In this document: positions 8,345 through 62,103 of the stretch, one piece after another
How positions within the stretch are numbered: position 1 is the stretch's first letter
Layout: every line of letters begins with the position of its first letter
Source: Beroe forskalii
Taxonomy: Eukaryota; Ctenophora; Nuda; Beroida; Beroidae
Assembly: GCA_011033025.1 (NCBI GenBank)
Contig: WFMF01000281.1
Location: forward strand, 165,213 to 229,212
DNA: 64,000 nt
Direction: 5' to 3'
The notes under the pieces: generated by a model
Seen by the model: the letters and a program-made list of their open reading frames with translations, nothing else
What the model was told of the DNA's origin: nothing
Databases searched by the model: none
Position numbers and translations under genes: made by a program

Positions 8345-10037
8345 AGAACAGTGAACACAGCAGTGAGAATAGTGCACAAACAGTGAGAACAGTACCCTGC
8401 AAAACAGTGAGAACAGTGCACAAAACTGTGCGAAAAGTGCACATAACAGTGAGAAATGTGCACATGACAGTGAGAACAGTGCACAAAACAGTGAGAACAG
8501 TGCACATATTAGTGAGAAAAGTGCACATAAGAGTGAGAACAGTGCACATAGCAGTGAGAACAGTGAGAACAGTGAGAACAGTGAGAACAGTGCACATAAC
8601 AGTGAGAACAGTGCACAGAACAGTGAGAACAGTCTCATAACAGTGAAAACAGTGCACATAGCAGTGAGAACAGTGCACATAACAGTGAGAACAGTGCACA
8701 TAACAGTGAGAACAGTGCATATAACAGTGAGAACAGTGCACAATACAGTGAGAACAGTGCACATATTAGTGAGAAAAGTGCACATAAGAGTGAGAAAAGT
8801 GCACATAGCAGTGAGAACAGTGAGAAATGTGCACATGACAGTGAGAACAGTGCACAAAACAGTGAGAACAGTGCACATATTAGTGAGAAAAGTGCACATA
8901 AGAGTGAGAACAGTGCACATAGCAGTGAGAACAGTGAGAACAGTGAGAACAGTGAGAACAGTGCACATAACAGTGAGAACAGTGCACAGAACAGTGAGAA
9001 CAGTCTCATAACAGTGAAAACAGTGCACATAGCAGTGAGAACAGTGCACATAACAGTGAGAACAGTGTACATAACAGTGAGAACAGTGCATATAACAGTG
9101 AGAACAGTGCACAAAACAGTGAGAACAGTGCACATATTAGTGAGAAAAGTGCACATAAGAGTGAGAAATGTGCACATGACAGTGAGAACAGTGCACAAAA
9201 CAGTGAGAACAGTGCACATATTAGTGAGAAAAGTGCACATAAGAGTGAGAACAGTGCACATAGCAGTGAGAACAGTGAGAACAGTGAGAACAGTGAGAAC
9301 AGTGCACATAACAGTGAGAACAGTGCACAGAACAGTGCACAGAACAGTGAGAACAGTCTCATAACAGTGAAAACAGTGCACATAGCAGTGAGAACAGTGC
9401 ACATAACAGTGAGAACAGTGCACATAACAGTGAGAACAGTGCATATAACAGTGAGAACAGTGCACAAAACAGTGAGAACAGTGCACATATTAGTGAGAAA
9501 AGTGCACATAAGAGTGAGAACAGTGAGAAATGTGCACATGACAGTGAGAACAGTGCACAAAACAGTGAGAACAGTGCACATATTAGTGAGAAAAGTGCAC
9601 ATAAGAGTGAGAACAGTGCACATAGCAGTGAGAACAGTGAGAACAGTGAGAACAGTGAGAACAGTGAGAACAGTGCACATAACAGTGAGAACAGTGCACA
9701 GAACAGTGAGAACAGTCTCATAACAGTGAAAACAGTGCACATAGCAGTGAGAACAGTGCACATAACAGTGAGAACAGTGCACATAACAGTGAGAACAGTG
9801 CATATAACAGTGAGAACAGTGCACAAAACAGTGAGAACAGTGCACATATTAGTGAGAAAAGTGCACATAAGAGTGAGAACAGTGCACATAGCAGTGAAAA
9901 CAGTGAGAACAGTGAGAACAGTGAGAACAGTGCACATAACAGTGAGAACAGTGCACAGAACAGTGAGAACAGTCTCATAACAGTGAAAACAGTGCACATA
10001 GCAGTGAGAACAGTGCACACAACAGTGAGAACAGTAC
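8345..10037. repeat. 21-bp minisatellite with higher-order period, abutting a donor
   Basis: The basic unit is CAGTGAGAACAGTGCACATA plus one base. Variants recur in blocks: the variant containing CTCATAACAGTGAAAACAG lies near 8636, 9007, 9360, 9719 and 9976, giving higher-order periods of about 371, 353, 359 and 257 bases. On the minus strand the array begins at the donor of exon B (GTGCAAG|GTACTGTTCTCAC), and the unit reads GTGCACTGTTCTCAC, so the unit looks like a copy of that junction. Long open frames on both strands arise because 21 is a multiple of three. Confidence 0.85.
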
Positions 10038-10208
10038 CTTGCACGACATCTTCAGGGCTGTCCAGGAGCTGGGAGCATTCCTCTTCCTCAGAAACCCTCC
10101 TCTCCTCCTTGACACACGTCACCTGGCCCCTGCCGTCAGAGAGACGCCGCTTCTTGTTGCCATGGTAATCTGACTCGTCAGACCCGGGGGACGGAACCAC
10201 CAGACTAT
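10038..10208 (-). CDS. C2H2 zinc-finger protein, exon B (acidic/basic region)
   Basis: 171 nt, phase 1 to phase 1. It encodes DSLVVPSPGSDESDYHGNKK, then RRLSDGRGQ and an acidic stretch (EERRVSEEEE) ending PEDVVQ. KKRRLSDGR could serve as a nuclear-localisation signal (inference). The acceptor is CATTCCAG and the donor GTGCAAG|GTACTG. The downstream intron begins directly with a minisatellite whose unit resembles this junction. The phase matches exon C, giving VVQAISLL across the splice. Confidence 0.7.
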
Positions 10209-11574
10209 CTGGAATGGGGATGGAATGAGTAAAGAGCAGTGAAAAAACAAGAAGTGGACAGGAGTAGTGGTGAGTTGATAGAAGCAGTGGTGAGTTGACA
10301 GAAGACCTAGTGTCTAGGCGAGTGCAGTGTGTAGAATTGAACTTCACGAAGTAATGTAAGCTGACCCCCCTCCCCCTGGAAGTAGGAATGCAACCTACCT
10401 CTTTGGGGGTCACTTTAACCTTGGAGTACACTATCGGGTGTGAGGTTCCTAAGAAATGTAACCTCACACCTGATAATAATCCCCTGGTGTGAGTGTAATG
10501 CTCACAAAGGCGCGCGCGGCTCACTGGCGCCGGCCAGGCGCCACTGTTCCCCACGACAATGCCTCTAATAAAAAGTGTTTCTTTGTGCACGGGTTACCAT
10601 TGTAAGATTGTAAGCCGGGATTTGAATTTGCCGCGCAGCACTCGCGATCTCATGCGGCCTCTGCAGAGTTACTTCAGGAAGGAGTTTTCTATGAGGTGAC
10701 ATGGGGGCTCTCAGTGAGTGTTTACACTTTACACTGCCAAAGTAATGGGCGCATAATCACACGATTGGGGCACTTTCCCCGAGCTTATTAGTAAACTAGA
10801 CTGTCGAAAAGGGTGATCAGCTCTGTTAAGCGCTCAATTATTTCATTAAAACCTTCTCTCAGCCTGCTTACCCTGTAAATTTAACATATTAAGCCTGAAC
10901 AGTTGATGAGATGGTCACAAAAACTTCGTAATTTCGTTGAAAACTACTTAGCACTCTTACTTGTGATTTTGATAATGATAAACATTTAATGATTTGAGCG
11001 GAATAAATGGCTGACAGAGCTTAAGAGTTTATAACATCGGAAGAAAAATTAGTCAAATCAATGCTTTTCACAAAATTAACTGGCGATATGCAGGTAACGG
11101 GCAGTTAAATTGGCACATTTGCAGATGACATTCCCCAAGTTGATATAGCATCGTCAACACACGCAAGAATGGACAAATACCAAATCGAAAACATTAAACA
11201 TTAGTACAAAGTAACTTGTCCGATATCCACGAGTCTAGATTGAGTGTATTAACTTTAATAGACAGCTAGAAGTTGTCGGTTTAAGAAGGTTTACGTGAGA
11301 CTGAGCTGACAGTGGTTCAATGTTCAAGCAGTTACTTTAGGCGCTGCGCCCCAGCAGCTATTATAGTACTGCTCGCTACCTTAAAGGATAAATTTACATG
11401 GGACAATAATTCTGGGGATCGAAATTTTGGGGTACGGAATTTGGGGATATTTTTTGGAATATAACACATGTTAACGTATGATGATGGCGTCATATTGAAA
11501 TGAAGTGGGGAACGGAAATATGAGGATTTTTCGAAGAATCCCCACATTTCGTTCCTTGTATGTTTCGTATTTAC
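10209..11574 (-). other. Intron between exons A and B; one inverted repeat
   Basis: No coding exon seen. Positions 10433-10474 form an inverted repeat (GGTGTGAGGTT and its complement around a short loop). Nothing else is recognisable. Confidence 0.4.
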
Positions 11575-11681
11575 CTCTGTTGATCGGGATGTACTGCGGA
11601 CTGGGGATGGAGGACTGCTGGGAAATGTGGACCAGCTGCACTCTGGGCCGGTTGGGGGACTCCTTCGTCTTGGAGGCTGGG
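11575..11681 (-). CDS. C2H2 zinc-finger protein, exon A (most upstream exon recognised)
   Basis: The donor is AGAG|GTAAAT, phase 1, matching exon B (INR then DSLVVPS). The frame reads SPASKTKESPNRPRVQLVHI followed by SQQSSIPSPQYIPINR. The 5' edge is uncertain: the acceptor could be CCCTCCAG at 11682, or the frame could start at the ATG at 11711-11713. Together exons A-F encode about 465 residues with five C2H2 fingers. I do not recognise the orthologue; fingers 4-5 resemble GLI/ZIC types in spacing only. Role: presumably a sequence-specific nuclear DNA-binding regulator. Confidence 0.55.
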
Positions 11682-11714
11682 CTGGAGGGGGGCGTGTGCA
11701 GGAAAGATAACATC

Positions 11715-12695
11715 CTCAGTTAGAGTGGGTTAGAGAGGGGTGGGTTAGAGAGGGGTGGGTTAGAGAGGGGTGGGTTAGAGAGGGTGGGTTAGAGAGGGGT
11801 GGGTTAGAGAGGGGTGGGTTAGAGAGGGGTGGGTTAGAGAGGGGTGGGTTAGATAGGGGTGGGTTAGAGAGGGGTAGATAAGAGAGGGGTGGGTTAGAGA
11901 GGGTGGATAAGAGAGGGTGGATAAGAGAGGGTGGGTTAGAGAGGGATGGGTTAGAGAGTGGTGGGTTAGAAAGGGGTGGGTTAGAGAGGGGTGGGTTAGA
12001 GAGGTGTTGGTTAGAAAGGGAGGGTTAGAGAGGATGGGGTTAGAGAGGGGTGGGTTAGAAAGGGGTGTGTTAGAGAGGGGTGGTTAGAGAGGGGTGGGTT
12101 AGAGAGGGGTGGGTTAGAGAGGGGTGGGTTAGAGAGGGGTGGATAAGAGAGGGATGGGTTAGAAAGGGATGGGTTAGAAAGGGAGGGTTAGAGAGGAGTT
12201 GGTTAGAGAGGGTGGGTTAGAGAGGGGTGGGTTAGAGAGGGATGGGTTAGAAAGGAGTGGGTTTGAAAGGAGTGGGTTTGAAAGGAGTGGGTTAGAAAGG
12301 AGTGGGTTTGAAAGGAGTGGGTTTGAAAGGAGTGGGTTTGAAAGGAGTGGGTTTGAAAGGAGTGGGTTTGAAAGGAGTGGGTTAGAAAGGAGTGGGTTAG
12401 AGAGGGGTAGGTTAGAGAGGGGTGGGTTAGAAAGGGAGGGTAAGAGAGGGGTGGGTTAGAGAGGGATGGGTTAGAAAGGGGTGGGTTAGAAAGGGGTGGG
12501 TTAGAGAGGGGTGGGTTAGAGAGGGTGGGTTAGAGATGAGTGGATTAGAGAGGAATTGGTTAGAGAGGGTGGGTTAGAGAGGGGCAAAGTGGGTTAGAGA
12601 GGGGCGAAGTGGGTAAGAGACGGGCGAAGTGGGTAAGAGATGGGCGGGATGGGTTAGAGGGGTTCCGAGTGGGTTATAGGGTAGTGAGGTGGGGT
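11715..12695. repeat. 15-bp minisatellite (GGGTTAGAGAGGGGT)
   Basis: About 65 diverged units, with a TTTGAAAGGAGTGGG sub-variant at 12255-12375. On the minus strand each unit reads CTCTCTAACCC, a pyrimidine run with a branch-point-like CTAAC. The array lies only 30-35 bases upstream of zinc-finger exon A, where a polypyrimidine/branch region would be expected. Confidence 0.8.
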
Positions 12696-12699
12696 GAGT

Positions 12700-19038: not shown

Positions 19039-19131
19039 ATGTCGATTCAAAGACACTTGAGACACTTGCCTAATCAGACCATTTTGGTCGAAAACCTCGC
19101 CCTTCGGCGTGAGGGCAGGATAGATCCCTCG
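19039..19131 (+). CDS. Candidate first coding exon, possibly of the coiled-coil gene
   Basis: ATG at 19039 opens 31 codons (MSIQRHLRHLPNQTILVENL, then ALRREGRIDPS) that end exactly at the consensus donor TCG|GTAAGTATCC, phase 0. A 13-bp array made of that donor follows at once. The next phase-compatible exon I can offer is 27277-27390, also phase 0. A minus-strand open frame of similar length covers the same bases, but it has no matching splice signals and runs into the repeat. The assignment to the coiled-coil gene is inference. Confidence 0.35.
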
Positions 19132-20729
19132 GTAAGTATCCTCGGTAAGTATCCTCGGTAAATATCCTCGGTTAGTATCCTCGGTAAGTATCCTCGGTAA
19201 GTATCCTCGGTAAGTATCCTCGGTAAGTGTCCTCGGTAAGTATCCTCTGTAAGTATCCTCGGTAAGTATCCTCGGTAAGTATCCTTGGTAAGTATCCACA
19301 GTAAGTATCCTCGGTAAGTGTCCTCAGTAAGTATCCTCGGTAAGTGTCCTCGGTAAGTATCCTCTGTAAGTATCCTCGGTAAGTATCCTCGGTAAGTATC
19401 CCGGGTAAGTATCCTTGGTAAGTATGCTGGGTAAGTATGTTCAGTAAGTATCCTCGGTAAGTATCCTTGGTAAGTATCCTCGATGAGTATCCTCGGTTAG
19501 TATCCTCGGTAAGTATCCTCGATGAGTATCCTCGGTTAGTATCCTCGGTAAGTATCCTTGGTAAGTATCCTCAGTAAGTATCCTCTGTAAGTATCCTCGG
19601 TAAGTATCCTCGGTTAGTATCCTCGGTAAGTATCCTCGGTTAGTATCCTCGGTTAGTATCCTCGGTAAGTATCCTTGGTAAGTATGCTGGGTAAGTATCC
19701 TAGGTAAGTATCCTCAATAAGTATCCTCGGTAAGTATCCTTGGTAAGTATCCTCAGTAAGTATCCTCGGTAAGTATCCTCGGTAAGTATCCTCGGTAAGT
19801 ATCCTCGGTTAGTATCCTCGGTAAGTATCCTTGGTAAGTATCCTTGGTAAGTATCCTAGGTAAGTATCCTCGGTAAGTATCCTCAGTAAGTATCCTCGGT
19901 AAGTATCCTCGGTAAATATCCTCGGTAAGTACCCTTGGTAAGTATCCTCGGTAAGTAACATCGGTAAGTATCCTTGGTAAGTATCCTCAGTAAGTATCCT
20001 CGGTAAGTATCCTCAGTAAGTATCCTCGGTAAGTATCCTCAGTAAGTATCCTAGGTAAGTATCCTCAGTAAGTATCCTCGGTAAGTTTCCTCGGTAAGTA
20101 TCCTCAGTAAGTATCCTCGGTAAGTATCCTCGGTAAGTATCCTCGGTAAGTATCCTCAGTAAGTATCCTCGGTAAGAATCCTCGGTTAGTATCCTAGGTA
20201 AGTATCCTTGGTAAGTATCCTCGGTAAGTATCCCCGATAAGTATCCTCGGTAAGTATCCTCAGTAAGTATCCTCGGTCAGTATCCTTGGTAAGTATCCTC
20301 AGTTAGTATCCTCGGTAGGTATCCTCGGTAAGTATCCTCGGTAAGTATCTCAGTAAGTACCCTCGGTAAGTATCCTCGGTAAGTATCCTCGGTAAGTATC
20401 CTCGGTAAGTATCCTCCGTTAGTATCCTCGGTTAGTATCCTCGGTAATTATTCTCAGTTAGTATCCTCGGTTAGTATCCTCGGTCAGTATTCTCTGTAAG
20501 TATCCTCGGTAGGTATCCTCGGTAAGTATCCTCGGTAAGTATCCTCGGTAAGTATCCTCAGTAAGTATCCTCGGTAAGTATCCTCGGTTAGTATCCTTGG
20601 TAAGTATCCTCGGTAAGTATCCTCGGTAAGTATCCTCGGTAAGTATCCTCGGTAAGTATCCTCGGTAAGTATCCTCAGTAAGTATCCTCGGTAAGTATCC
20701 TCGGTAAGTATCCTCGGTAAGTATCCTCA
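19132..20729. repeat. 13-bp minisatellite (GTAAGTATCCTCG)
   Basis: About 120 units. Each contains TCGGTAAGTAT, a strong 5' splice site, and the array begins exactly at the donor of the candidate exon 19039-19131, whose last bases (CCCTCG) are part of the unit. Common variants are GGTTAGT, CAGTAAGT and TTGGTAAGT. As 13 is not a multiple of three, use of internal donors would shift frame. Confidence 0.9.
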
Positions 20730-27276: not shown

Positions 27277-27390
27277 CGCTACTCTCTGATGGAAGGAGGG
27301 AGGTGCAAGATAAAAGCCGCCAAAGCGGCGGCAGGCCAGCCAGGTGGCAGGCGCTTCAGCAGGATTTCCCAGGCCCCTAACGCCGCTATG
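27277..27390 (+). CDS. Coiled-coil protein, upstream exon
   Basis: 114 nt, phase 0 on both sides: the acceptor CCACTGCAG, then RYSLMEGGRCKIKAAKAAAG, QPGGRRFSRISQAPNAAM, and the donor CTATG|GTAAGTGAG. The ATG at 27289 could be the true start instead of an upstream exon. The basic, alanine-rich sequence has no recognised domain. The last 18-20 bases and the donor are the unit of the 2.9-kb array that follows. The next exon in phase is 30622-30718. Confidence 0.45.
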
Positions 27391-30255
27391 GTAAGTGAGT
27401 TAGTGACCTTGGCCCCTAACGCCGCTATGGTAAGTGAGTTAGTGACCCTGGCCCCTAACACCGCTATGGTAAGTGAGTTAGTGACCTTGGCCCCTAACGC
27501 CGCTATGGTAAGTGAGTTAGCGACCCTGGCCCCTAACGCAGCTATGGTTAGTGAGTTAGTGACCCTGGCCCCTAACGCCGCTATGGTTAGTAAGCTAGTA
27601 ATGACCCCGGCCCCTAACGCCGCTATGGTTAGTAAGCTAGTAATGACCCTGGCCCCTAACGCCGCTATGGTAAGTGAGTTAGTGACCCTGGCCCCCTAAC
27701 GCCGCTATGGTAAGTGAGTTAGTGACCCTGGCCCCTAACGCCGCTATGGTAAGTGAGTTAGTGACCCTGGCCCCTAACGCCGCTATGGTTAGTGAGTTAG
27801 TAATGACCCTGGCCCCCTAACGCCGCTATGGTTAGTGAGTTAGTGACCCTGGCCCCTAACGCCGCTATGGTAAGTGAGTTAGCGACCCTGGCCCCTAACG
27901 CCGCTATGGTTAGTGAGTTAGTGACCCTGGCCCCTAACGCCGCTATGGTAAGTGAGTTAGTGACCCTGGCCCCTAACGCCGCTATGGTAAGCTAGTAATG
28001 ACCCTGGCCCCTAACGCCGCTATGGTAAGTGAGTTAGTGACCCTGGCCCCTAACGCCGCTATGGTAAGTGAGTTAGTGACCCTGGCCCCTAACGCCGCTA
28101 TGGTAAGTGAGTTAGTGACCCTGGCCCCTAACGCCGCTATGGTAAGTGAGTTAGTGACCCTGGCCCCTAACGCCGCTATGGTTAGTGAGTTAGTGACCCT
28201 GGCCCCTAACGCCGCTATGGTTAGTGAGTTAGTGACCCTGGCCCCTAACACCGCTATGGTAAGTGAGTTAGTGACCCTGGCCCCTAACGCCGCTATGGTT
28301 AGTAAGCTAGTAATGACCCTGGCCCCTAACGCCGCTATGGTAAGTGAGTTAGTGACCCTGGCCCCTAACGCCGCTATGGTAAGTGAGTTAGTGACCCTGG
28401 CCCCTAACGCCGCTATGGTTAGTGAGTTAGTGACCCTGGCCCCTAACGCCGCTATGGTTGGTGAGTTAGTGACCCTGGCCCCTAACGCCGCTATGGTTAG
28501 TGAGTTGGTAATGACCCTGGCCCCTAACGCCGCTATGGTTAGTGAGTTAGTGACCCTGGCCCCCAACGCCGCTATGGTTAGTGAGTTAGTGACCCTGGCC
28601 CCTAACGCCGCTATGGTAAGTGAGTTAGTGACCCTGGCCCCTAACGCCGCTATGGTAAGTGAGTTAGTGACCCTGGCCCCCTAACGCCGCTATGGTTAGT
28701 GAGTTAGTGACCCTGGCCCCTAACGCCGCTATGGTTAGTGAGTTAGTGACCCTGGCCCCTAACGCCGCTATGGTAAGCTAGTAATGACCCTGGCCCCTAA
28801 CGCCGCTATGGTTAGTGAGTTAGTGACCCTGGCCCCTAACGCCGCTATGGTTAGTGTGTTAGTGACCCTGGCCCCTAACGCCGCTATGGTTAGTGAGTTA
28901 GTGACCCAGGCCCCTAACGCCGCTATGGTAAGCTAGTAATGACCCTGGCCCCCTAACGCCGCCATGGTAAGCTAGTAATGACCCTGGCCCCCTAACGCCG
29001 CTATGGTAAGTGAGTTAGTGACCCTGGCCCCTAACGCCGCTATGGTTAGTGAGTTAGTGACCCTGGCCCCTAACGCCGCTATGGTAAGTGAGTTAGCGAC
29101 CCTGGCCCCTAACGCCGCTATGGTAAGTGAGTTGGTAATGACCCTGGCCCCTAACGCCGCTATGGTGAGTTAGTGACCCTGGCCCCCTAACGCCGCTATG
29201 GTTAGTGAGTTAGTGACCCTGGCCCCTAACGCCGCTATGGTAAGTGAGTTAGTGACCCTGGCCCCTAACGCCGCTATGGTAAGTGAGTTAGTAATGACCC
29301 TGGCCCCTAACGCCGCTATGGTTAGTGAGTTAGTGACCCTGGCCCCTAACGCCGCTATGGTTAGTGAGTTAGTGACCCTGGCCCTAACGCCGCTATGGTG
29401 GGTGAGTTAGTGACCCTGGCCCCTAACGCCGCTATGGTAAGTGAGTTAGTGACCCTGGCCCCTAACGCCGCTATGGTTAGTAAGCTAGTAATGACCTTGG
29501 CCCCTAACCCCGCTATGGTTAGTAAGCTAGTAATGACACAGGCCCCTAACGCCGCTATGGTAAGTGAGTTAGTGACCCTGGCCCCTAACGCCTGGCCCCT
29601 AACGCCGCTATGGTAAGTAATGACCCTGGCCCCCTAACGCCGCTATGGTTAGTGAGTTAGTGACCCTGGCCCCTAACGCCGCTATGGTTAGTGAGTTAGT
29701 GACCCTGGCCCCTAACGCCGCTATGGTAAGTGAGTTAGTGACCCTGGCCCCTAACGCCGCTATGGTTAGTGAGTTAGTGACCCTGGCCCCCTAACGCCGC
29801 TATGGTAAGTGAGTTAGTGACCCTGGCCCCTAACGCCGCTATGGTTAGTGAGTTAGTGACCCTGGCCCCCTAACGCCGCTATGGTTAGTGAGTTAGTGAC
29901 CCTGGCCCCTAACGCCGCTATGGTAAGTGAGTTAGTGACACAGGCCCCTAACGCCGCTATGGTAAGTGAGTTAGTGACCCTGGCCCCCTAACGCCGCTAT
30001 GGTAAGTGAGTTAGTGACCCTGGCCCCCTAACGCCGCTATGGTAAGCTAGTAATGACCCTGGCCCCTAACGCCGCTATGGTAAGTGAGTTAGTGACCCTG
30101 GCCCCCTAACACCGCTATGGTTAGTGAGTTAGTGGCCCTGGCCCCCTAACGCCGTTATGGTAAGCTAGTAATGACCCTGGCCCCTAACGCCGCTATGGTT
30201 AGTGAGTTAGTGACCCTGGCCCCTAACGCCGCTATGGTTAGTGAGTTAGTGACCC
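27391..30255. repeat. 36-bp minisatellite made of an exon end plus its donor
   Basis: About 80 units. Each holds GCCCCTAACGCCGCTATG, the 3' end of exon 27277-27390, followed by GTAAGTGAG or GTTAGTGAG and TTAGTGACCCTG. Variants include TAAGCTAGTAATGACC, which is a shorter unit, and an extra C. The unit is twelve codons, so a SELVTLAPNAAMV frame stays open for up to 228 codons in both directions. It fills almost the whole intron between 27390 and 30622. Confidence 0.95.
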
Positions 30256-30621
30256 ATATCTACCTGATCAGTACACCCGGTGACTGCCACTCACGAGCAT
30301 GTCATAAAGTGGACGGCCTACTGCCTGTCAGAGTGCCAGAGTGTCAGAAGGCCTCGCTGACGGAGCTCATTTTCACTGCCAACCAGCCAACATGAATTAC
30401 TCATACTATATACCACTATTATTTTATATCATTAGTTTTACTTTTATGTTATATTACCTATATAAATATTTTGACATCATTTGACATAAAATAGTAAAAT
30501 GTAACGGCATTACTAAGTTATATCCTGTATTTACATCGTAAGTCAACACCTTGTGTTAACTTGGTCGTCATCAGCTGAATTAGCAACCACGTCACTCCTA
30601 CCCACGTCACTCCTACCTCAG
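30256..30621 (+). other. Remainder of the intron after the 36-bp array
   Basis: A possible acceptor at about 30270 (ACCTGATCAG) is followed by 40 open codons ending at 30395, which I cannot assign. Then AT-rich DNA leads to the acceptor of the next exon, where ACGTCACTCCTACC occurs twice in tandem just before CTCAG. Confidence 0.3.
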
Positions 30622-30718
30622 GCAATGCACGCTGCTGACAACGACGACTTTGTCACAATCGCAAGGCACAAACTCTTGCGGAGGAAAAGCTTAAAAGTCA
30701 TCGTACCTCCGGAAGTGG
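30622..30718 (+). CDS. Coiled-coil protein, exon (AMHAADNDDFV...)
   Basis: 97 nt, phase 0 to phase 1. It encodes AMHAADNDDFVTIARHKLL followed by RRKSLKVIVPPEV. The acceptor is CCTACCTCAG and the donor GAAGTGG|GTGAGTTG. It joins the next exon (V from G|TA, then KSIYEIRREAL) without breaking frame. No known domain is recognised. Confidence 0.6.
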
Positions 30719-30860
30719 GTGAGTTGATCCACCTCAGAAGTAGGTGAGTTAGTCCACCTCAGAAGTAGGTGAGTTAGTCCACCTCAGAAGTAGGTGAGTT
30801 AGTCCACCTCAGAAGTAGGTGAGTTAGTCCACCTCAGAAGTAGGTGAGTTGATCCACCAA
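30719..30860. repeat. 25-bp donor-type array at the 5' end of an intron
   Basis: Between five and six units. Each combines CCACCTCAGAAGTAG with GTGAGTTAGT; compare the real junction CCTCCGGAAGTGG|GTGAGTTGAT. The unit therefore spans the exon/intron boundary and every copy recreates a donor. Confidence 0.85.
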
Positions 30861-31272: not shown

Positions 31273-31483
31273 TAAAGAGTATCTACGAGATCCGGAGGGA
31301 GGCGCTGGAGCACGTGGCTCAGCGCAGCGCTCAGGAGCTGGAGAAGGAGAGGAAGGAGCGGGAGGAGGAGCTGGCGGAGCTGAGGAGGAAACTCATGTTC
31401 CAGGACTGGGACAAGGCGCGCCAGAAGAGGGAGGACATTGAGAGGCTGCTCAGAGAGGAGGAGGAGAGGCTCGCTGCAGTCAA
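31273..31483 (+). CDS. Coiled-coil protein, exon (KSIYEIRREALEH...)
   Basis: 211 nt, phase 1 to phase 2. It encodes KSIYEIRREALEHVAQRSAQ, ELEKERKEREEELAELRRKL, MFQDWDKARQKREDIERLL and REEEERLAAVK. It is strongly charged and helical with heptad character, consistent with a coiled coil or single alpha-helix. The donor is GTCAA|GTGAGC. The minus-strand Leu/Pro frame here is a shadow. Confidence 0.8.
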
Positions 31484-39404: not shown

Positions 39405-40462
39405 ATATTGAAAGGGTTAGCATAACAGTTTTATCATTAGCAGTCGTTTTTAACTTTATTTTACCAATACTAGGGTATTGGTGCTTTGTGCTAGTTTCAG
39501 TATCTGGTTTCGAGTTCTTTTATGGTAACTTATGATTTAGTACATTGGGCTCACATATAGGAGCATATTAGATCTATTAATTAATTAATTAGTGTTTATT
39601 TACCTTTATTTACCCTGTTTTACCTGACCCGTTTACTGTATTTAGCAAATGTATACATGCACAAAAACGAACACCAAATACCAATCAACACAACACATTG
39701 TAATTACTGTGTACATTTGCAAACCGTTATATGTTAGACAAGTATGTCACGTGACGTCTGCTCGTAACACAGGTATAGAATGGAATGTGGCTGCTATACA
39801 TTTTTGAGAGTAATTGCAATTGCAAATGTCGATGTACACTGTCTATGTGGCGTACCTAGTTCTTTCGTTCTCAATTTTGATATTGTACACTTTGTTTGGT
39901 CAGTCCTTCAGTGCAACGGTGGAGCAATGTTGATTTTTGAGCCGGGGAATTTTCCCTCGAAAATTAGCACTAATTGAATCATGGTAATTTAATTATAGCA
40001 GTCCAACAACATTTTTGATCCCAAAAGACGAACAGTAACGTAGTTGTATGAAACATTAGCTTCCCACTCCCAGTCCCAAGGTTGTTTGTTTTCCTAAAGC
40101 AATCAGGTCGGACCAATATCGACATGTTCTCATGTTGCAGCATATCAAAAATGATAGGCATATGGAAGTGACATCATAATATTGTGTTATTGCACTGAAT
40201 TACCGATTGGTAAAACCGCCTATCAAATGAAAAAGTCGTGTACACTTACACTTACAATAACCACACTGAATCTAGTTTGTATCGGTTAATGATGGTCATA
40301 ATCCTATTTGGCCAAGGTAAAGTAGCCTTGAAATAACAAAAGCAAATTTTTACACAATTATAGATTGGCCAGAAAGTGTAACTTGAAAAGTAAGGCTCAA
40401 AGCTGGACACAATTTGCGATTTTATACCTATAGGTAAGAAGGTTGAAAATTTTGTCAAATTT

Positions 40463-40535
40463 GAGCCGGGGAAAAAGGATACTTTTCCCCGGCTCCATGA
40501 ATAAAGCCGGGGAAAAAACCCCCTGTCCCCGGCTC
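40463..40535. repeat. Two adjacent GAGCCGGGGAAAA hairpins
   Basis: GAGCCGGGGAAAA pairs with TTTTCCCCGGCTC across six bases (40463-40495). A second stem, AGCCGGGGA with TCCCCGGCT, follows to 40535. A related half motif lies at 39940. On either strand the stems could terminate or structure a transcript. Confidence 0.5.
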
Positions 40536-40924
40536 CTGCTCCACCCATGCTTCAGTGTTCACATTCCGATGTATTGGTCTGTGCTGATGATTTACACATT
40601 ACCTATCAATCATGTTGTAATTGTACGATTTTAATTCAAATGTGAATGGATTCTTGAGAATGTGAGAAAGTGTGTGTACTGTGTATTGAATATTCACTTC
40701 GTGATTGTATCTTTTCGATTTGTTTGTACTGTTGATTTTGCAAAGGTTTATGGAAATGAACGTTTTGATGGAATCTATGTTCTTATGCTGATTGCTGCCT
40801 CTTCAAAAAACCTTCAAAATACTTAAGTCAATGCACAAATATGAAGCATAATATAAATAATTCATAAGGTGTCCTGCTAGGGTCTAAATCTGTCCAAATT
40901 AAACTTACTTCGAATCGGCCGTGT

Positions 40925-41104
40925 ATATACTATATAACCACGTGACAAGAGAGAGAGACTTTGATCTTCATATAGCACTCACTGGCGCTCGTACTATATG
41001 AGCAATTAGACACTCACTGCGTTCGCGCCTAATTGTAATTCACCACGCTGCGCGTGGCGAATTGCAAAACTCTCTCTCTAGTCGCGTGGTTATATAGTCT
41101 ATAT
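40925..41104. repeat. 180-bp inverted-repeat element
   Basis: The arms (ATATACTATATAACCACGTG, then ACAAGAGAGAGAG; 40925-40957) pair with 41070-41104, with few mismatches. The interior has further inverted words (CAATTAGACACTCACTGCG against CGCCTAATTG). This is a MITE-like structure without coding capacity; parts resemble 34560-34660. Confidence 0.55.
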
Positions 41105-42270
41105 CCCTGTGTGGCTCGCGCGGCGCGGCGTGTCCTCAGAGAAGCGGTGCAGCGTGTCCTCAAGGGAAGCGCAAGGGCGCTGCATACACACCTATCTTGG
41201 GCTTAGGAAACTGGCCGAGCTTGCTAAACACGTATACCCCTGTTATCGTCGCGCGGCGTAGGGAAGCACGCGTACACTTCCTAAGCATGTTTCTCTCTGT
41301 GGGGCTATAGCGTGGGTAAAATGCTGATCAGAGAACCTCATTGCTGCAATGCTGCAGTGACATTGCTGCAGTGACAAGGGAAGACTAATGATTCACAGTT
41401 TAGTCTCGACCCTAATACAGTATTAATTCTATGTTTGTCATGTACTCATACACCTTTATAGATTTGGATTTATTGCTTTCTCAGACAATACTTTTTGACT
41501 CTCCTGTGTGTTTTTAGTGGAAGCTAATGTTTTGATATAATGAAAGGAAGCGTGATGGTTTAATACCATAAATTATTCTATCTTCTATGTCTTTCTATAT
41601 TGACAATTTTAGAATTCATATTTGTTTCATCTTGTCAGCCCCCTATTTTCAATGAATTTTCAAATCCATAGCATAGTGCCCTTGTTTTGATCCCCTGTTA
41701 TTGGATTCTGCAGAGTATGACGCTTTCCTTCAACTTTCCAACTTCTGTAATATACGAGTGGCAAATTTCAATTCCTAAATCTTTAGTTCTGTTTGAAGTG
41801 ATTGATCATTTCAGTGAAACACAAAAATTCTCAAATATGAAATCAAACCCATACACTTTGCACCGCTATTCAACTGTCAGTTTCGAGATAAAATATCTTT
41901 TCTTCAGGAACTCCACAAAGTGTGACCAACACAGCTCAGTTAGTTAATTTAATATGTGTTGTGTTGTAAGTTTAAAACTTTAGTTCTGAGTATTCAATTT
42001 GTGCTTTTTTCTCGAAGTTGGAACATTGCTCTCGCAACATTTCTTAAGGAAATTCCGAATAAAAGAATGGGTTAAAGTGGTAACTTGTGGAAAGCAGTTA
42101 ACAAGTGGTTATCATTAACAATTATTCCTGATAGACTTTGACTCATGAATATAGTTTATTGATAATTCTCGTAATTGGAAATTTGTACTTAAATCAGGGA
42201 AAAATTAAGCTATGTAAGCAACATAAATTCTACTTTACTTTCATCTGTAGCTCAATCAATTAACTCAGGC

Positions 42271-42425
42271 AGGTGTCGCCACCTCGAGAAATGAGAATTC
42301 TTCTGAAATTTCCGATCGCGCGGCGCCATGTAAGTAGGTGAATATACTGTTAAATCAGTATCACACACGTACAAATTGTGGTTTTGTGGAAATTTCAGAC
42401 GCCGATCTCAGAGGTGGCGACACCT
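42271..42425. repeat. 155-bp MITE-like element
   Basis: Perfect 15-base ends, AGGTGTCGCCACCTC (42271-42285) and its complement (42411-42425). Each end is itself palindromic, and CTGAAATTTCC/GGAAATTTCAG form a second inverted pair inside. No clear flanking duplication. Confidence 0.6.
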
Positions 42426-42945
42426 CAGTAACAATGGTACCCATATGATCAAAATCAATAATAATTTTCAATCATAAAGCTATCATAACCAAGCCAAGAC
42501 AGAAAATCACAGTCCAAGCTCTCATTTAGGCCAATTTACGAAAATGAAACATCTCTTGTCATCCCATCTGGGATAAGATTAAACAAAATGTCCAAAATTG
42601 GCAGTTCGCAATCACAAGGGGATTTGCCCTGAGATCCTCTTACTGACACCAGTACACTCTTCAGTAGTGTAAATGACAGTTTTGTTCAGATTGTGCTGAT
42701 CACATCACTATATCCCTCATTTGTTTTCTCTGTTTGTTGATACTGTATTGTAATAGTATTGTAGTGTATATTTCACTAGGTTCCAATGGGGATTATTAGA
42801 AGGTTGAATTGCACAACTAACTTAGTAGTGAAATAACAATCTTATTGGTAAATTAATAATAAGAATAGATGAAAAGTTAAACAGTATAAAAACCTGAATC
42901 TGATAAACTAACTTAGTACATGTTGGTCATGATAAAACTTTCATA

Positions 42946-44222
42946 ATATTATTCTTGCTTACTGATTTTTAAAATGGTTTTATGGTTTTTATGTTTTTTG
43001 TATATTTAGAAGTAATTAATTGATTAATTAATTATGGTATTTTAGATTAGGTTTTAATTTAGACTTTTCGCTAGTATGATGTACCTTGGGCTCACAAATA
43101 AGAGCTATTAGATGAATTAATTGATTAATTCACTAGTGGTTGTGGGTTTGTAATGTACAACAGATCATTCCATACTATTAACTAACACCCTTCACTATGT
43201 TTGACACCATGCATCAATTACAGTTGAAACCTGTGTGAAGCATCACTGTTGCTGCAACCATGTTGGCAATCCCAGTGTGCTCCTGGCACACTGGACCCGT
43301 TGGGAAGGCACAGGACTCATTCCTAATGTCCACAGTAACTGGGACCACCCATGTTGGGGTGTCTGTCTGGATCTCTTGTAGATCCATCCCTTTTTAGTAG
43401 TAGTAGTAGAGGCATCACTGACCTCAGTCTAACATACCACTGCTACAAGTCTTATAGCTCTTACACAAGTCATACACACTTTCAGCTGTCAGATGGTTTC
43501 TCTCACTATTCTGGTGTTTCACTCTACCAGTATGATGTGTCTGTCCTGTCTACATATCCTTGACACCAAAATGGTGTATCTTTGATGCAAGTCTGCAATA
43601 TCTCTGACACAACTCTAACCTAACATCAGTCTGATGTATCAGTAATCACTGAAGGCATGCAAGTCTCATTGCCTGATGCCTCTGACATCAGTCTGATGTA
43701 CCACTGATTCTACAATAATATGACATGTTCTAGCTGGCTGATATTTTTCCCCCAGCACAACCAGAGAATTTTATAATTAGAAGCAGTATATATTTTATTC
43801 AATATCTCAATATGATGTAAAACATGCAAAATTGAATTGAAATTTGTAATTTCAGTCATTAGATTACTCAATTATTTAGGAGGTAGAAAGTTTTGCACTA
43901 CAGTAATTTTTTGTCAAGTTGTCTTGCCATTTTATGATTTTTTCAGAGGTGTTTTTGATTGGTGACTACTGAACATGGCTTTCTGTACCCATAAATCTTG
44001 CCCTAGCCTTCAAATCAACATCAATTATAGCCATATTTGTTGCAGTACAGTATACTTAAATTGATAATAATTCAGGTCATGGCTAGAATGTTGGCATCAT
44101 GCTGATTTGTTCAGTAAGATTGCTGCTGAGTAGAAGTTAACAATAACTGTGAATGATGTTAGCATGGTAACCATCATTCCTGATGTCAAGGTAAAATTCA
44201 GAGTATCATTCACTTCATATCT
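42946..44222. repeat. 1.28-kb dispersed repeat, copy 1 (uninterrupted)
   Basis: It begins at about ATATTATTCTTGCTTACTG and ends near GTATCATTCAC. It contains CTTGGGCTCACAAATAAGAG at 43086, also found in the LINE 3' UTR at 39546, so the left 200 bases derive from a LINE-type 3' end. The remainder is non-coding, with many TCTGATGTATC/TGACACC words. Copy 2 (44669-44867 plus 48277-49340) is roughly 95 percent identical by eye. Confidence 0.8.
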
Positions 44223-44483
44223 TAATAATAAAGTAAATTCACACGTGAATAATGTTTGTCTGTGCGGGCGCACACCATTAAATTTGAGCTTGCCAAGTAA
44301 ATATCAAGAGAAACAAAGGCAAAAGGGAGAAATGAGGCGCCGTTGCTATGGAAACCAATTTTCGCACGTGCAGATGATAATCAGTTCTTTGAGAGTGCTT
44401 TCTATTACACTACTACTGTCAAATGTTGTGCTGCAGTTTTTGAACATTTGACATTCTTTTTACTTCAAATTCAAGATCTCAAG
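44223..44483 (+). promoter_or_regulatory. Candidate promoter region with an X-box
   Basis: Unique sequence between the two repeat copies. GTTGCTATGGAAAC at 44342-44355 fits the RFX X-box, CCAAT follows at 44356, and GCACGTGC lies at 44365. The ATG of the candidate first PPP2R3 exon is about 130 bases downstream. Confidence 0.3.
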
Positions 44484-44549
44484 ATGGACATAACTCGAAT
44501 AAAGGAGGATAATCCAGATAGATGGTTTTCAAAAAGAACTGCGGTAGAG
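44484..44549 (+). CDS. Candidate first coding exon of the PPP2R3-like gene
   Basis: ATG followed by MDITRIKEDNPDRWFSKRTA and VE, ending phase 0 at GTAGAG|GTCGGC. It would splice to 50731 (VKVNELIIQWL), which also needs phase 0. The donor is unusual, but the exon at 50731 also ends at AG|GTCGGC. Length and content are too small for family proof. Confidence 0.3.
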
Positions 44550-44668
44550 GTCGGCCGGTAATCAATGCTCGGTCGGCGTAAATGTAGTTTTTAAATTAGC
44601 CGTAAAGATCAATTTAAGGTTTGCAAAAGTTCTATTTAACCGAGTCGGATAAATTAGCAGATTGGCGA

Positions 44669-44867
44669 AGATATTATTCTTGCTTACTGATTTTTAAAAT
44701 GGTTTTATGGTTTTTGTATATTTAGAAGTAATTAATTAATTAATTAATTATGGTATTTTAGATTAGGTTTTAATTTAGACTTTTTGCTAGTATGATGTAC
44801 CTTGGGCTCACAAATAAGAGCTATTAGATGAATTAATCGATTAATTCACTAGTGGTTGTGGGTTTGT
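44669..44867. repeat. 1.28-kb dispersed repeat, copy 2, left part
   Basis: Matches 42946-43151 and is broken at TTTGT by the foldback element. It resumes at 48277. Confidence 0.8.
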
Positions 44868-56364: not shown

Positions 56365-56868
56365 GAACTAGTGGATAAATCGACTGTCACAAGTCACTCA
56401 CCTCCCTAGCTCATGACAACACAGTCCAAGTCAGATGGATAAAAGCCCACATCGGACACGGGGGAAACGAGAAAGCAGACCAGCTTGCCAAGGCTGGCAC
56501 CAAAGATGGTAACCCCGTCACCAGCCTTGTCCCCATTTCATTCATCAAACACTTAATCAATGCCAAGGTAACCAACCTCAGCCACGACAGGTGGATCACC
56601 AACAAACATGCTCACACTGACATGATCATAGGTAACCATCAGAAGAAGGTTTTTCACACTTAACAACAACACTGGCAACCGTATCCGGTACCGAACTGCT
56701 ATCTCCATTATTACAGGACACATAGGACTGAACAAACACTTGCACAGAATAACACGCGCTGACACACCAAACTGCCCTTACTGCACTGACACAGAGGAAA
56801 CAGTTGTACACTTCATTGGACAATGCCCTGCATTTATGAGAATCAGAGGCAACACACTCAGGACATAC
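56365..56868 (+). pseudogene. 3' fragment of an RNase H-bearing LINE
   Basis: HDNTVQVRWIKAHIGHGGNE followed by KADQLAKAGTK matches the RNase H C-terminal motif (WI.AH.GH.GNE.AD.LAK). Downstream, CPYCTDTEETVVHFIGQCPA is the Cys/His tail seen after RNase H in I/Jockey-group LINEs; between them the frame is interrupted at about 56660. The fragment ends abruptly where the 31-bp array begins. Confidence 0.7.
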
Positions 56869-59600
56869 TAAGATTTAGATAGCACACTGGTGCTGGTTAA
56901 ATTTAGATAGCACACTGGTGTACTGGTTAGAATTTAGATAGGACACTGGTTATTGATAGCTGGTTAGAATTTAGATAGCACACTGGTGTTGCCCAATTGA
57001 GATTTAGATAGCACACTGAAGTTATTGCTGGTTAAATTTAGATAGCACACTTTTACTGGTATACTGGTTAAATTTAGATAGCACTGGTGTACTGGTTAGA
57101 ATTTAGATAACACACTGGTGTACTAGTTAGAATTTAGATAACACACTAATACTGGTTAGAATTTAGATAGCACACTGGTGTACTGGTTAAATTTAGATAA
57201 CACACTAGTGCTGGTTTAGAATTTAGATAGCACACTGGTGTACTGGTTAGAATTTAGATAGGACACTGGTGTACTGGTTAGAATTTAGATAGCACACTGG
57301 TGTACTGGTTAGAATTTAGATAGCACTCTGGTGTACTGGTTAGAATTTAGATAGCACACTGGTGTACTGGTTAGAATTTAGATAGCACACTGGTTGACTG
57401 GTTAGAATTTAGATAGCACACTGGTATACTGGTTAGAATTTAGATAGCACACTGGTATACTGGTTAGAATTTAGATAGCACACTGGTGCACTGGTTAGAA
57501 TTTAGATAGCACACTGGTGTACTGGTTAGAATTTAGATAGCACACTAGTGTACTGGTTAGAATTTAGATAGCACTCTGGTGTGCTGGTTAGAATTTAGAT
57601 AGCACACTAGTGTACTGGTTAGAATTTAGATAGCACACTGGTGCACTGGTTAGAATTTAGATAGCACACTGGTATACTGGTTAGAATTTAGATAGCACAC
57701 TGTACTGGTTAAATTTAGATAGCACACTGGTGTACTGGTTAGAATTTAGATAGCACACTAGTGTACTGGTTAGAATTTAGATAGCACACTGGTGTACTGG
57801 TTAGAATTTAGATAGCACACTGGTATACTGGTTAGAATTTAGATAGCACACTGGTGTACTGGTTAGAATTTAGATAGCACACTGGTATACTGGTTAGAAT
57901 TTAGATAGCACACTGGAGTACTGGTTAGAATTTAGATAGCACACTGGTATACCGGTTAGAATTTAGATAGCACACTGGTGTACTGGTTAGAATTTAGATA
58001 GCACTCTGGTGTACTGGTTAGAATTTAGATAGCACACTGGTGTACTGGTTAGAATTTAGATAGCACTCTGGTATACTGGTTAGAATTTAGATAGCACACT
58101 GGTGCACTGGTTAGAATTTAGATAGCACTCTGGTGTACTGGTTAGAATTTAGATAGCACTCTGGTGTACTGGTTAGAATTTAGATAGCACTCTGGTTTAC
58201 TGGTTAGAATTTAGATAGCACACTGGTATACTGGTTAGAATTTAGATAGCACACTGGTGCACTGGTTGGAATTAGAATTTAGCACTGGTGTGCTGGTTAG
58301 AATTTAGATAGCACACTAGTGTACTGGTTAGAATTTAGATTGCACTCTGGTGTACTGGTTAGAATTTAGATAGCACACTAGTGTAATGGTTAGAATTTAG
58401 ATAGCACACTGGTATACTGGTTAGAATTTAGATAGCACTCTGGTATACTGGTTAGAATTTAGATAGCACACTGGTTTACTGGTTAGAATTTAGATAGCAC
58501 ACTGGTGTACTGGTTAGAATTTAGATAGCACACTGGTTGACTGGTTAGAATTTAGATAGCACTCTGGTATACTGGTTAGAATTTAGATAGCACACTAGTG
58601 TACTGGTTAGAATTTAGATAGGACACTGGTTTCCTGGTTAGAATTTAGATAGGACACTGGTATACTGGTTAGAATTTAGATAGCACACTGTTATACTGGT
58701 TAGAATTTAGATAGCACACTGGTGTACTGGTTAGAATTTAGATAGCACACTGGAGTACTGGTTAGAATTTAGATAGCACACTGGTGCACTGGTTAGAATT
58801 TAGATAGCACACTGGAGTACTGGTTAGAATTTAGATAGCACACTAGTGTACTGGTTAGAATTTAGATAGGACACTAGTGTACTGGTTAGAATTTAGATAG
58901 CACACTGGTTTACTGGTTAAAATTTAGACAGCACACTGGTGTACTGGTTAGAATTTAGGTAGCACACTGGTATACTGGTTAGAATTTAGATAGCACACTG
59001 GTGTACTGGTTAGAATTTAGATAGCACTCTGGTGTACTGGTTAGAATTTAGATAGCACACTGGTATACTGGTTAGAATTTAGATAGCACACTGGTGTACT
59101 GGTTAGAATTTAGATAGCACACTGGTATACTGGTTAGAATTTAGATAGCACACTGTTGTACTGGTTAGAATTTAGATAGCACACTGGTATACTGGTTAGA
59201 ATTTAGATAGCACACTGGTGTACTGGTTAGAATTTAGATAGCACTCTGGTATACTGGTTAGAATTTAGATAGCACACTGGTGTACCGGTTAGAATTTAGA
59301 TAGCACACTGGTGTACTGGTTAGAATTAAGATAGCACTCTGGTGTACTGGTTAGAATTTAGATAGCACACTGGTATACTGGTTAGAATTTAGATAGCACA
59401 CTGGTATACTGGTTAGAATTTAGATAGCACACTAGTGTACTGGTTAGAATTTAGATAGCACACTGGTTTCCTGGTTAGAATTTAGATAGCACAATAGTAC
59501 TGGTTAGAATTTAGATAGCACACTAGTGTACTGGTTAGAATTTAGATAGCACACTGGTGTACTGGTTAGAATTTAGATAGCACACTGGTGTGTAATACTG
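56869..59600. repeat. 31-bp donor-type array, second block
   Basis: About 88 units of GTTAGAATTTAGATAGCAC plus ACTGGTGTACTG, the same unit as 32376-33197. The first 370 bases are ragged (partial units, small losses), and the rest is regular. It precedes exon 59849. Confidence 0.9.
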
Positions 59601-59848
59601 TTTTGATTGATTTTATTTTTAGATAGCACACTGGTTAGAATTACTCAAGATATTGGTTTAAGTTTAAATAGCATAGAATTGAGATAGCATGGAATTGAAT
59701 TCTGGTTATATAAAATAGAAAACTTGTAAGATAGATCATATTATTTTTCCATAAATCTGTGATAAGACATTTTGTATCTTTTTGAGTGCATTGTGTTTGC
59801 AGTAATCAAGCTTTTGATTTGCAATTCCATTTAATGATTAATTCCCAG

Positions 59849-59983
59849 GAGATCGCTGGAAACTTCAAGAAGAAGGGCAGGAAGTTCAGAAAGCAGCGAC
59901 ACAAGACGCAAACCATCCACTTGGCTAATGCTAAAGCTATCATTTCAAAGTTTGCTAGCGAGCCACAACCACAGCAGGAGGAG
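59849..59983 (+). CDS. Coiled-coil protein, basic exon (EIAGNFKKKGRKF...)
   Basis: 135 nt, phase 0 both sides. EIAGNFKKKGRKFRKQRHKT, then QTIHLANAKAIISKFASEPQ and PQQEE. It is highly basic in the first half. The acceptor is TTAATTCCCAG and the donor GAGGAG|GTAATT. It continues in phase from exon 32274-32375, and both sides of the intervening intron carry the same repeat, which supports the linkage. No domain recognised. Confidence 0.65.
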
Positions 59984-60051
59984 GTAATTGAAACAGTGAC
60001 AAACAGTTACATAGAGCAGCTGATTTGAAAGTTCATCCGACCTTCAGTTTT

Positions 60052-62103
60052 TATGTGAAAAACTCCACTCCTTATTCCCCAGTCCCAACTCCCACTTCCT
60101 ACTCCCCAGTCCTCACTCCCACTCCCAGTCCTCACTCCCACTCCCACTCCCCAGTCCTCACTCCCACTCCCACTCCCCAGTCCTCACTCCCACTTCCCAC
60201 TCCCCAGTCCCAACTCCCATTCCCCAGTCCTCACTCCCACTTCCCACTCTCCAATCCTCATTCCCACTCTACTCCCCAGTCCTCACTCCCACTCCCACTC
60301 CCCAGTCCTCACTCCCACTCCCACTCCCCAGTCCTCACTCCCACTCCCCAGTCCCAACTCCCATTCCCCAGTCCTCACTCCCGCTTCCCACTCTCCAGTC
60401 CTCACTTCCCACTCCCCAGTCCTCATTCCCACTTCCCACTCTCCAGTCCTCACTCCCACTCCCCAGTCCCCATTTCCCACTCCCCATTCCTCACTCCCAC
60501 TTCCCACTCCCCAGTCCTCACTCCCACTCCCAGTCCTCAGTCCTCACTCCCACTTCCCACTCCTTAGTCCTCACTCCCACTTCCCACTCCCCAGTCCTCA
60601 CTCCCACTCCCAGTCCTCACTCCCACTCCCACTCCCCAGTCCTCACTCCAACTCCCCACTCCCCAGTCCTCACTCCCCACTTCCCAGTCCCCAGTCCTCA
60701 CTCCCCACTTCCCACTCTCCAGTCCTCACTCCCACTTCCCACTTCCCAGTCCTCATTCCCACTCCCCAGTCCTCAATCCCACTTCCCACTCTCCAGTCCT
60801 CACTCCCACTCCCACTCCCCAGTCCTCACTCCCACTCCAACTCCCACTCCCCAGTCCTCACTCCCACTCCCCAGTCCCAACTCCCATTCCCCAGTACTCA
60901 CTCCCACTTCCCACTCTCCAGTCCTCACTCCCACTCTCCAGTCCTCACTCCCACTTCCCACTCTGCAGTCCTCACTCCCCACTTCCCACTCCCCAGTCCT
61001 CACTCCCACTCCTCAGTCCTCACTCCCATTCCCCACTCCCCAGTCCTCAATCCCCACTTCCCAGTCCCCACTTCCCACTCCCCAGTCCTCATTCCCACTT
61101 CCCACTCTCCAGTCCTCACTCCCACTTCCCACTCTCCAGTCCTCACTCCCACTTCCACTCCACTCCTCACTCCCAGTCCCAAGTCCCCAGTCCTCACTCC
61201 CACTCCCACTCCCACTCCCCAGTCCTCATTCCCACTTCCCACTCCTCAGTCCTCACTCCCACTTCCCACTCCCGATTCCTCACTCCCACTTACCACTCCC
61301 CAGTCCTCACTCCCACTCCCCAGTCCTCACTCCCACTTCCCACTCTGCAGTCCTCACTCCCCACTTCCCACTCCCCAGTCCTCACTCCCACTCCTCAGTC
61401 CTCACTCCCATTCCCCACTCCCCAGTCCTCAATCCCCACTTCCCAGTCCCCACTTCCCACTCCCCAGTCCTCATTCCCACTTCCCACTCTCCAGTCCTCA
61501 CTCCCACTTCCCACTCTCCAGTCCTCACTCCCACTTCCACTCCACTCCTCACTCCCAGTCCCCAGTCCCCAGTCCTCACTCCCACTCCCACTCCCACTCC
61601 CCAGTCCTCATTCCCACTTCCCACTCCTCAGTCCTCACTCCCACTTCCCACTCCCGATTCCTCACTCCCACTTACCACTCCCCAGTCCTCACTCCCACTC
61701 CCCAGTCCTCATTCCCACTTCCCAGTCCCCAGTACTCATTCCCACTTCCCACTCCCCAGTCCAAACTCCCATTCCCCACTCCCGAGTCCTCACTCCCACT
61801 TCCCACTCCCGATTCCTCACTCCCACTCCCCACTCCCACGCCCACTCCCCAGTCCTCACTCCCATTCCCCACTCCCAAGTCCTCAATCCCCACTTCCCAG
61901 TCCCCAGTCCTCACTCCCACTTCCCACTCCCCAGTCCTCACTTCCCAGTCCCCAGTCCCAACTCCCATTCCCCACTCCCCAGTCCTCATTCCCACTTCCC
62001 AGTCCCCAGTCCTCACTCCAACTCCCGAGTCTTCACTCCCACTTCCCACTCCCCTGTCTTCACTCCCACTTCCCACTCCCGATTCCTCACTCCCACTCCC
62101 CAG
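60052..62103. repeat. Pyrimidine-rich acceptor-type array
   Basis: Degenerate units of CACTCCCCAGTCCTCACTCC with CCACTTCC insertions. The block 60960-61310 recurs nearly exactly at 61330-61690. The array ends at the acceptor CCACTCCCCAG|TCTCCACAAG of exon 62104, so each unit holds a pyrimidine tract, CAG and the first exon bases. Long Gly/Glu/Val frames on the minus strand are repeat translations. Confidence 0.9.

Follow-up and report, generated by a model that had tools for sequence, protein, structure and literature searches.

The stretch analysed here, called the window, comprises 64,000 nucleotides of Beroe forskalii DNA (C338:165213-229212) from an assembly of 216 Mb in 1134 contigs. Two genes backed by homologous proteins were modelled in it, a plus-strand gene for a coiled-coil protein and a minus-strand gene for a C2H2 zinc-finger protein, and several of their introns contain tandem arrays which begin or end at a splice junction. 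Arrays in the window and in all other stretches were called with Tandem Repeats Finder (TRF), and gene models were obtained by joining exons where GT-AG dinucleotides and phase agree and by comparing the products with homologous proteins, reading frame and protein homology being the support for the predicted junctions throughout. The array positions given in an initial annotation of this DNA were recovered by TRF, and seven of the eight junctions that it named (10037 on the minus strand, 27391, 30719, 31272, 31484, 32376, and 62103) agreed with reading frame and with contiguity of the homologs, whereas the eighth, 19132, lacks a supported exon. The features are collected in Table 1.

Table 1. 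Genes, arrays and insert in the window (positions are those of the window).
Feature	Position	Strand	Description
Coiled-coil gene	27289..62215	+	exons 27289-27390, 30622-30718, 31273-31483, 31714-32074, 32274-32375, 59849-59983, 62104-62215
Donor array	27368..30255	+	73 x 39 bp; starts 23 bp inside exon 1 (donor 27391)
Donor array	30712..30858	+	5.9 x 25 bp; starts 7 bp inside exon 2 (donor 30719)
Degenerate acceptor array	30859..31275	+	14 CAGTAA copies; the last, at 31270, is the predicted acceptor 31272
Donor-segment copies	31480..31600	+	three degenerate TCAAGTGAGCAGC at 31480, 31532, 31588 (donor 31484); no array called by TRF
Donor array	32371..33195	+	27 x 31 bp; starts 5 bp inside exon 5 (donor 32376)
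Continuation of 31-bp array	56873..59591	+	88 copies beyond the 23.7-kb insert
Acceptor array	60065..62110	+	about 76 x 27 bp; its last 7 bp or so lie in exon 7 (acceptor 62103)
C2H2 zinc-finger gene	5295..11713	-	coding exons 11713-11575, 10208-10038, 7503-7123, 5516-5295; phase-consistent GT-AG; Pfam C2H2
Array	8326..10035	-	about 80 x 21 bp; starts 2 bp after donor 10037
Array	11725..12659	-	unit CCCTCTCTAACCCAC, about 58 copies, and 4.6 copies of a 20-mer; ends about 10 bp before AG 11715
Array	19127..20728	+	123 x 13 bp CCTCGGTAAGTAT; donor consensus
Insert	33196..56872		open reading frames (ORFs) of a long interspersed nuclear element (LINE), Penelope-like fragment, 5' part of PPP2R3 gene, RNase H-like LINE tail

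The protein predicted from the joined exons 2-7 of the coiled-coil gene aligned to Bolinopsis microptera LOC134817636 with 53% identity and 97% coverage, and the same query gave Mnemiopsis ACHWQZ_G006899 as the second named ctenophore homolog. The protein is contiguous with its relatives at PPEV/VK (intron 30719-31272), KDR/ENAL (32075-32273), and NIL/EIAGNF (32376-59848). Exon 1 (MEGGRCKIKAAK...SRISQAPNAAM) lies outside the aligned query, and by eye it resembles the Mnemiopsis sequence MSGRDKIRAAK...SRLAESANAEL and is followed by the same ALAAANNDDF-type continuation, which supports the donor at 27391. The donor at 31484 is backed mainly by phase because the coiled coil aligns loosely at this place. 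At acceptor 62103, the predicted exon has three residues (SPQ) beyond those of the relatives, in a variable stretch, and the same acceptor is present in a second copy of the gene on contig C691. Comparison of the coiled-coil protein with PDB and Pfam, made with a query in which one residue, where exons B and C meet in phase, was wrong, yielded no convincing match and no family.

The units of the donor arrays at 27391, 30719, and 32376 carry 23, 7, and 5 exon bases, respectively, and so span the junction, the property by which the 'mirages' of lancelets are recognised. At 27391, the 23 exonic bases are repeated in 40 of the 56 anchored inner copies, 19 of them in 15 copies and 17 in 1 copy (at most 1 mismatch); a 29-mer made up of 23 exon and 6 intron bases recurs 61 times in the intron with at most 3 mismatches, and GGT[A/T]AG occurs at 70 places of the array. 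Allowing for up to 1 mismatch, 5 recurrences were found for the 7+6-mer at 30719; for the 6+6-mer at 32376 there were 21 in one block and 65 in another, the two blocks forming one 31-bp repeat within one 27.5-kb intron. Almost all of the intron between 30719 and 31272 is array sequence, with a donor array first and the degenerate acceptor array after it. At 31484, where an array had been annotated, only the degenerate donor-segment copies of Table 1 were found, and these are present in the C691 copy as well. A 15-mer of 2.1 copies, absent from the initial annotation, stops 4 bp before acceptor 30621. Because the exon ends encode residues that are similar or identical in the relatives, the exon most likely predates the array and served as its template, and the arrays at 27391, 30719, and 32376 most likely grew from the junction. 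For some arrays, the annotated tandem duplication of junction-spanning segments is thus upheld, on donor and acceptor sides, by exon bases of the relatives that recur in intronic units.

The part of the plus-strand gene that lies beyond about 30.7 kb in the window is also present on contig C691 (L024 and neighbouring stretches). Including flanks, its exons D, E, and F are identical to those of the window at 142/144, 254/270, and 182/192 positions and use the same splice sites, and the 1, 1, and 4 coding differences are, by eye, all synonymous. The array at 30719 has 5.8 copies in C691 and 5.9 in the window, whereas 21.2 copies in C691 compare with 76.2 in the window for the acceptor array at 62103 and 3.8 copies with 26.8+87.7 (about 115) for the 31-bp array, which in C691 is single and separated from the following exon by no more than a few hundred bases. 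The C691 copy could represent either an allele of poor sequence quality or a duplicate that has decayed; an allele of the whole window was considered and rejected, as colinearity is lost upstream of about 30.7 kb. For Beroe ovata, an excerpt of the genome report gives an estimate of 94.3 Mb with 41.97% GC (PMC11184263), so that the 216-Mb assembly may hold both haplotypes.

Array edges lie 23, 7, 5, and 2 bp from the donors at 27391, 30719, 32376, and 10037, respectively; for the acceptors at 62103 and 31272, the distances are 6 and 21 bp. In the two homology-backed genes, 6 of 20 splice sites are within 25 bp of an array edge, and in 20,000 rotations of the merged arrays with four or more copies and a length of 100 bp or more (n=16) a mean of 0.50 sites was obtained at this distance cut-off (P=0.00015, a value that is optimistic, as are those that follow, since the window was preselected for visible arrays). 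With the 25 arrays of at least 2.5 copies, the count was still 6/20, with a rotation mean of 0.79 and P=0.00095. Addition of seven exon ends of PPP2R3, which are rough, were placed by eye and have no array near them, gave 6/27 with the stricter arrays (mean 0.70, P=0.00035).

The zinc-finger gene, for which further 3' exons are likely, is contiguous with its best match, the homolog P0090 (53% identity, 100% coverage), and also with Mnemiopsis ACHWQZ_G006905 except for exon 2, which the Mnemiopsis homolog lacks; most of the other matches listed cover about a quarter to half of the query. Contiguity of P0090 at DSPEDVVQ/AISLL (DNPEDVVQALSLL) fixes the donor at 10037. Both ACHWQZ_G006899 and ACHWQZ_G006905 are on Mnemiopsis contigs of 21,511,028, and the gene numbers suggest that the coiled-coil and zinc-finger genes are near each other in Mnemiopsis too. 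The AG at 11715, directly upstream of the conserved start codon, is probably the acceptor of a 5' untranslated region or leader, and the array that ends before it, which the initial annotation did not list, contains a branch-point-like CTAAC in its unit.

The anatomy of the arrays, with exon bases in their units, edges at junctions, and copy numbers that differ between gene copies, was observed directly. With a probability of about 0.82, we consider the arrays of the window to be junction-seeded minisatellites ('mirages') produced by near-neutral growth of duplications across the junction, the site nearest the exon remaining in use. A short segment across the exon end and the intron start, in the case of a donor, or across the intron end and the exon start, in the case of an acceptor, would be duplicated in tandem, presumably by slippage or unequal exchange, and the duplicate would land inside the intron. 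Provided that the outermost splice site, next to the exon, is left intact and is the one used, the mRNA can remain the same, and the array could then grow, shrink, and homogenise almost neutrally while the intron is inflated to kilobases. The initial annotation had instead sought the cause of near-neutrality in extra functional splice sites. This cause is not supported at 30719 and 32376, where only the exon-proximal donor is frame-open (1/6 and, in the first block, 1/26); at 27391 alone, the first 8 of 70 donors are in frame and open, each adding about 13 residues. When the splice columns of inner copies were compared with the rest of the unit, values of 0.923 vs 0.960, 0.995 vs 0.946, 0.975 vs 0.939, and 0.925 vs 0.981 were obtained, with no consistent signal of selection on inner splice sites across the four array blocks scored. 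With splice columns that are not preserved better in any consistent way, the inner copies give the impression of sequence homogenised without selection.

Eleven 10-kb stretches (L030-L040), chosen by contig number and fixed position alone, provided an unselected sample with 40 arrays (2.5 copies or more, period 8-200); of fifteen stretches intended, four fell on contigs of insufficient length. The array L030:2797-2970, whose 25-bp unit consists of exon end and GTAAGTTAATGT, overlaps by its first 13 bp the end of a long exon for which Pfam gives a match to Laminin_G_3 (3.1e-15). On the acceptor side, the array L031:7205-8893 stops about 16 bp before the end of ctgtctccctgcag and a putative open exon. 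The arrays at L032:827 and L030:1295 adjoin possible exons, that of L032 having no Pfam match, and share a dispersed TGACGTCATTATCA unit. This sequence was seen in 7 of the 11 stretches (L030, L032, L033, L034, L036, L038, L039), sometimes as 35-bp tandem arrays, and represents a dispersed repeat family.

Array units were also scored with a donor position weight matrix of typical human frequencies, at thresholds of 9.5 and 7 bits and with 200 dinucleotide shuffles as control. At 9.5 bits, strong donors were present in 3/24 units of the window, 4/40 of L030-L040, and 1/36 of C691, with shuffle means of 0.62, 0.93, and 0.52, and these counts were reached in 2, 1, and 82 of 200 shuffles, respectively. 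For L030-L040, where 4/40 was observed at both thresholds, the genomic means were 0.34 at 9.5 bits and 2.10 at 7 bits; two of the four units share the dispersed repeat and one (L031) is really acceptor-side, and the strong-donor content of array units is weak support for recurrence. Genome-wide, three GGTAAGT in a row occur at 1706 places and in the reversed control at 486, and AGGT three times at a period of 14 occurs 733 times compared with 387 in the control.

Several results weigh against growth of the arrays from junctions. Of the 16 larger arrays in the window, 6 have an edge close to a known splice site, and 10, including those at 15269, 23778, 25819, and 26569, do not. The unit at 10037 had been annotated as containing the donor, but the array abuts the junction with a unit that lacks it, and the junction-like segment GCA[A/G]GGTACTG has just two occurrences, one at the junction (10042) and one towards the other end of the array (8400). 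The array before 11715 likewise abuts a junction without repeating it, and at 19132, annotated as a donor junction, there is no supported exon and no upstream ORF of at least 100 codons able to serve as one. In the C691 copy, exons B and C contain several frame-breaking indels and exon A is not recognisable. At 7 bits, donors were counted in 5/24 units of the window, 4/40 of L030-L040, and 2/36 of C691 against shuffle means of 2.98, 4.19, and 3.35, and these counts were reached in 31, 132, and 177 of 200 shuffles, so that L030-L040 is not above its shuffles at this threshold and the 60 kb of C691 show no donor excess at any threshold tried. Three GGTGAGT in a row were found at 2781 places compared with 5112 in the reversed control, in conflict with the count for GGTAAGT; as the pattern counts disagree and are swayed by a few huge arrays, no genome-wide enrichment is claimed. 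The earlier suggestion that the process recurs in this genome is therefore retained in part, for the Pfam-backed case and the acceptor-adjacent case of the eleven unselected stretches, and is not carried further by the genome-wide counts, the 7-bit scores or C691.

Arrays that abut a junction without repeating it would be expected if minisatellites arose anywhere in introns and spread until a selected exon halted their growth, with no seeding at junctions. Such a passive barrier fits the array 2 bp into the intron at 10037, with its unit lacking the donor, and also fits 11725-12659 and L031:7205-8893, which halts about 16 bp before its acceptor. It does not predict exon bases in the units, and the 23, 7, 5, and 13 such bases at 27391, 30719, 32376, and L030 refute it for these four arrays; overall it is regarded as unlikely. 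Errors of assembly might also have produced the array lengths or the split array, and the 23.7-kb insert inside an array and the indel-rich C691 copy are indeed places where assembly is prone to fail. Nevertheless, the separate contig C691 has arrays of the same units at its junctions, and in the window the exons on either side are open; we regard an artefact of this kind as very improbable.

The TGACGTCATTATCA unit common to L030:1295 and L032:827, whose motif is spread over 7 of 11 unselected stretches, raises the question of mobile or dispersed repeats, either introner-like or as transposon-borne arrays, which landed at splice sites. Introners are dispersed copies of one sequence. The arrays described here resemble introner elements in being repetitive DNA tied to splice sites, but units differ from junction to junction and each matches its own exon. 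The one unit searched in the genome, that of 31 bp, turned up only in the coiled-coil gene: of 64 matches, 62 lay on C338 and the other 2 on C691, in a search that passes over very common words. An origin from mobile repeats is considered very improbable, and seeding at the junction, followed by near-neutral growth, is preferred.

In the insert that splits the 31-bp array, the Penelope-like fragment was recognised by eye and has no Pfam match, and the RNase H-like LINE tail, also recognised by eye, extends to about 56870. The 5' exons of PPP2R3 (PP2A B'') are on the same strand as the coiled-coil gene, and none was recognised beyond about 54.3 kb. The insert is not at the corresponding place in C691, and it may be a real insertion, a nested gene, or a misassembly. 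Hundreds of nested genes are reported for Hormiphora in an excerpt of its genome paper (PMC8527503). A 1.07-kb direct repeat with 96% identity (43149-44220 and 48277-49342) was also observed, and inverted repeats, 307 and 156 bp long, lie between its copies. Near the end of the window, dense near-palindromic CCATTGGTACCAATGG-type arrays occupy 63500-63930, and many more are present on the C691 stretch.

A further contig, C1134 (13,339 bp; L042), is mitochondrial and strongly derived, with four in-frame TGA codons in COX1 (code 4); the 9,000 bases read have 17.5% GC, and ARAGORN found no tRNA in them. An excerpt describing the Beroe forskalii mitogenome gives a mean GC of 17.3%, no conserved tRNAs, and code 4 (PMC6991124), which these features of C1134 fit. 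A lancelet origin of the DNA, to which the mirage literature had pointed, is rejected on this agreement and on the ctenophore homologs of the coiled-coil gene. At 4311 and 7546 of C1134 the same ORF start apparently occurs twice, as a duplication or an assembly overlap.

Although the initial annotation could not say whether such arrays had been described, excerpts of two reports on lancelets present the same phenomenon as mirages, that is, tandem repeats across exon-intron boundaries in the Adh3, TnC, globin, and PGBD5 genes of Branchiostoma, on both exon sides, the units measuring 10-72 bp in Adh3 and about 150-160 bp in globins (PMC3087553, PMC3902484). In the same excerpts, mirages are reported to be without effect on splicing, and the haplotypes of BflGb6 differ, with 6 units in one and 3 in the other. 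For the Adh3 mirages, somatic instability is reported. As far as these excerpts go, the Beroe arrays share with mirages the minisatellite-like duplication of a boundary with GT or AG signals kept in many copies, the involvement of donors as well as acceptors (here 31272 and 62103), and unit lengths (25, 31, 39, and 27 bp) inside the lancelet range of about 10-160 bp. The haplotype length difference in lancelets would have a counterpart in the copy numbers of C691 and the window if the former is an allele rather than a duplicate. The present arrays differ from those described in the excerpts in their ctenophore host, in reaching 70-115 copies and kilobases, and in an intron, 30719-31272, built almost wholly of a donor array and an acceptor array, and splicing is here predicted from the DNA sequence.

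A related process is intron gain by tandem duplication of AGGT-containing segments, which comprises the Rogers model, potato RdRp, ATP2A1, and 24-bp repeats in fission yeast cited in PMC4974935. As in that process, tandem copies at or near splice signals add GT and AG sites, but in the window existing introns are enlarged and no new intron is seen. In titles and abstract openings of the literature on ctenophore genomes, minisatellites, and tandem repeats with introns, no report of ctenophore junction minisatellites was found, nor was one found in the accessible portions of two ctenophore genome papers (PMC11184263, PMC8527503). As far as this literature goes, mirage-type arrays are thus extended to a new phylum, the ctenophores, and to far longer arrays.

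More tentatively, and with considerable doubt, junction-seeded growth might be a pervasive and fast intron-enlarging engine across the Beroe genome and perhaps the phylum, independent of that in lancelets, with introns built entirely from their own splice sites and with arrays of the 27391 type that could feed repeat-bearing isoforms. Should one process be at work in both comb jellies and lancelets, splice junctions would be general hot spots of tandem duplication, and a long-debated route to intron growth and gain would become testable by counting. The process would also yield introns that vary widely and contain dozens of competing splice sites, which would offer a natural test of how the spliceosome chooses among them.

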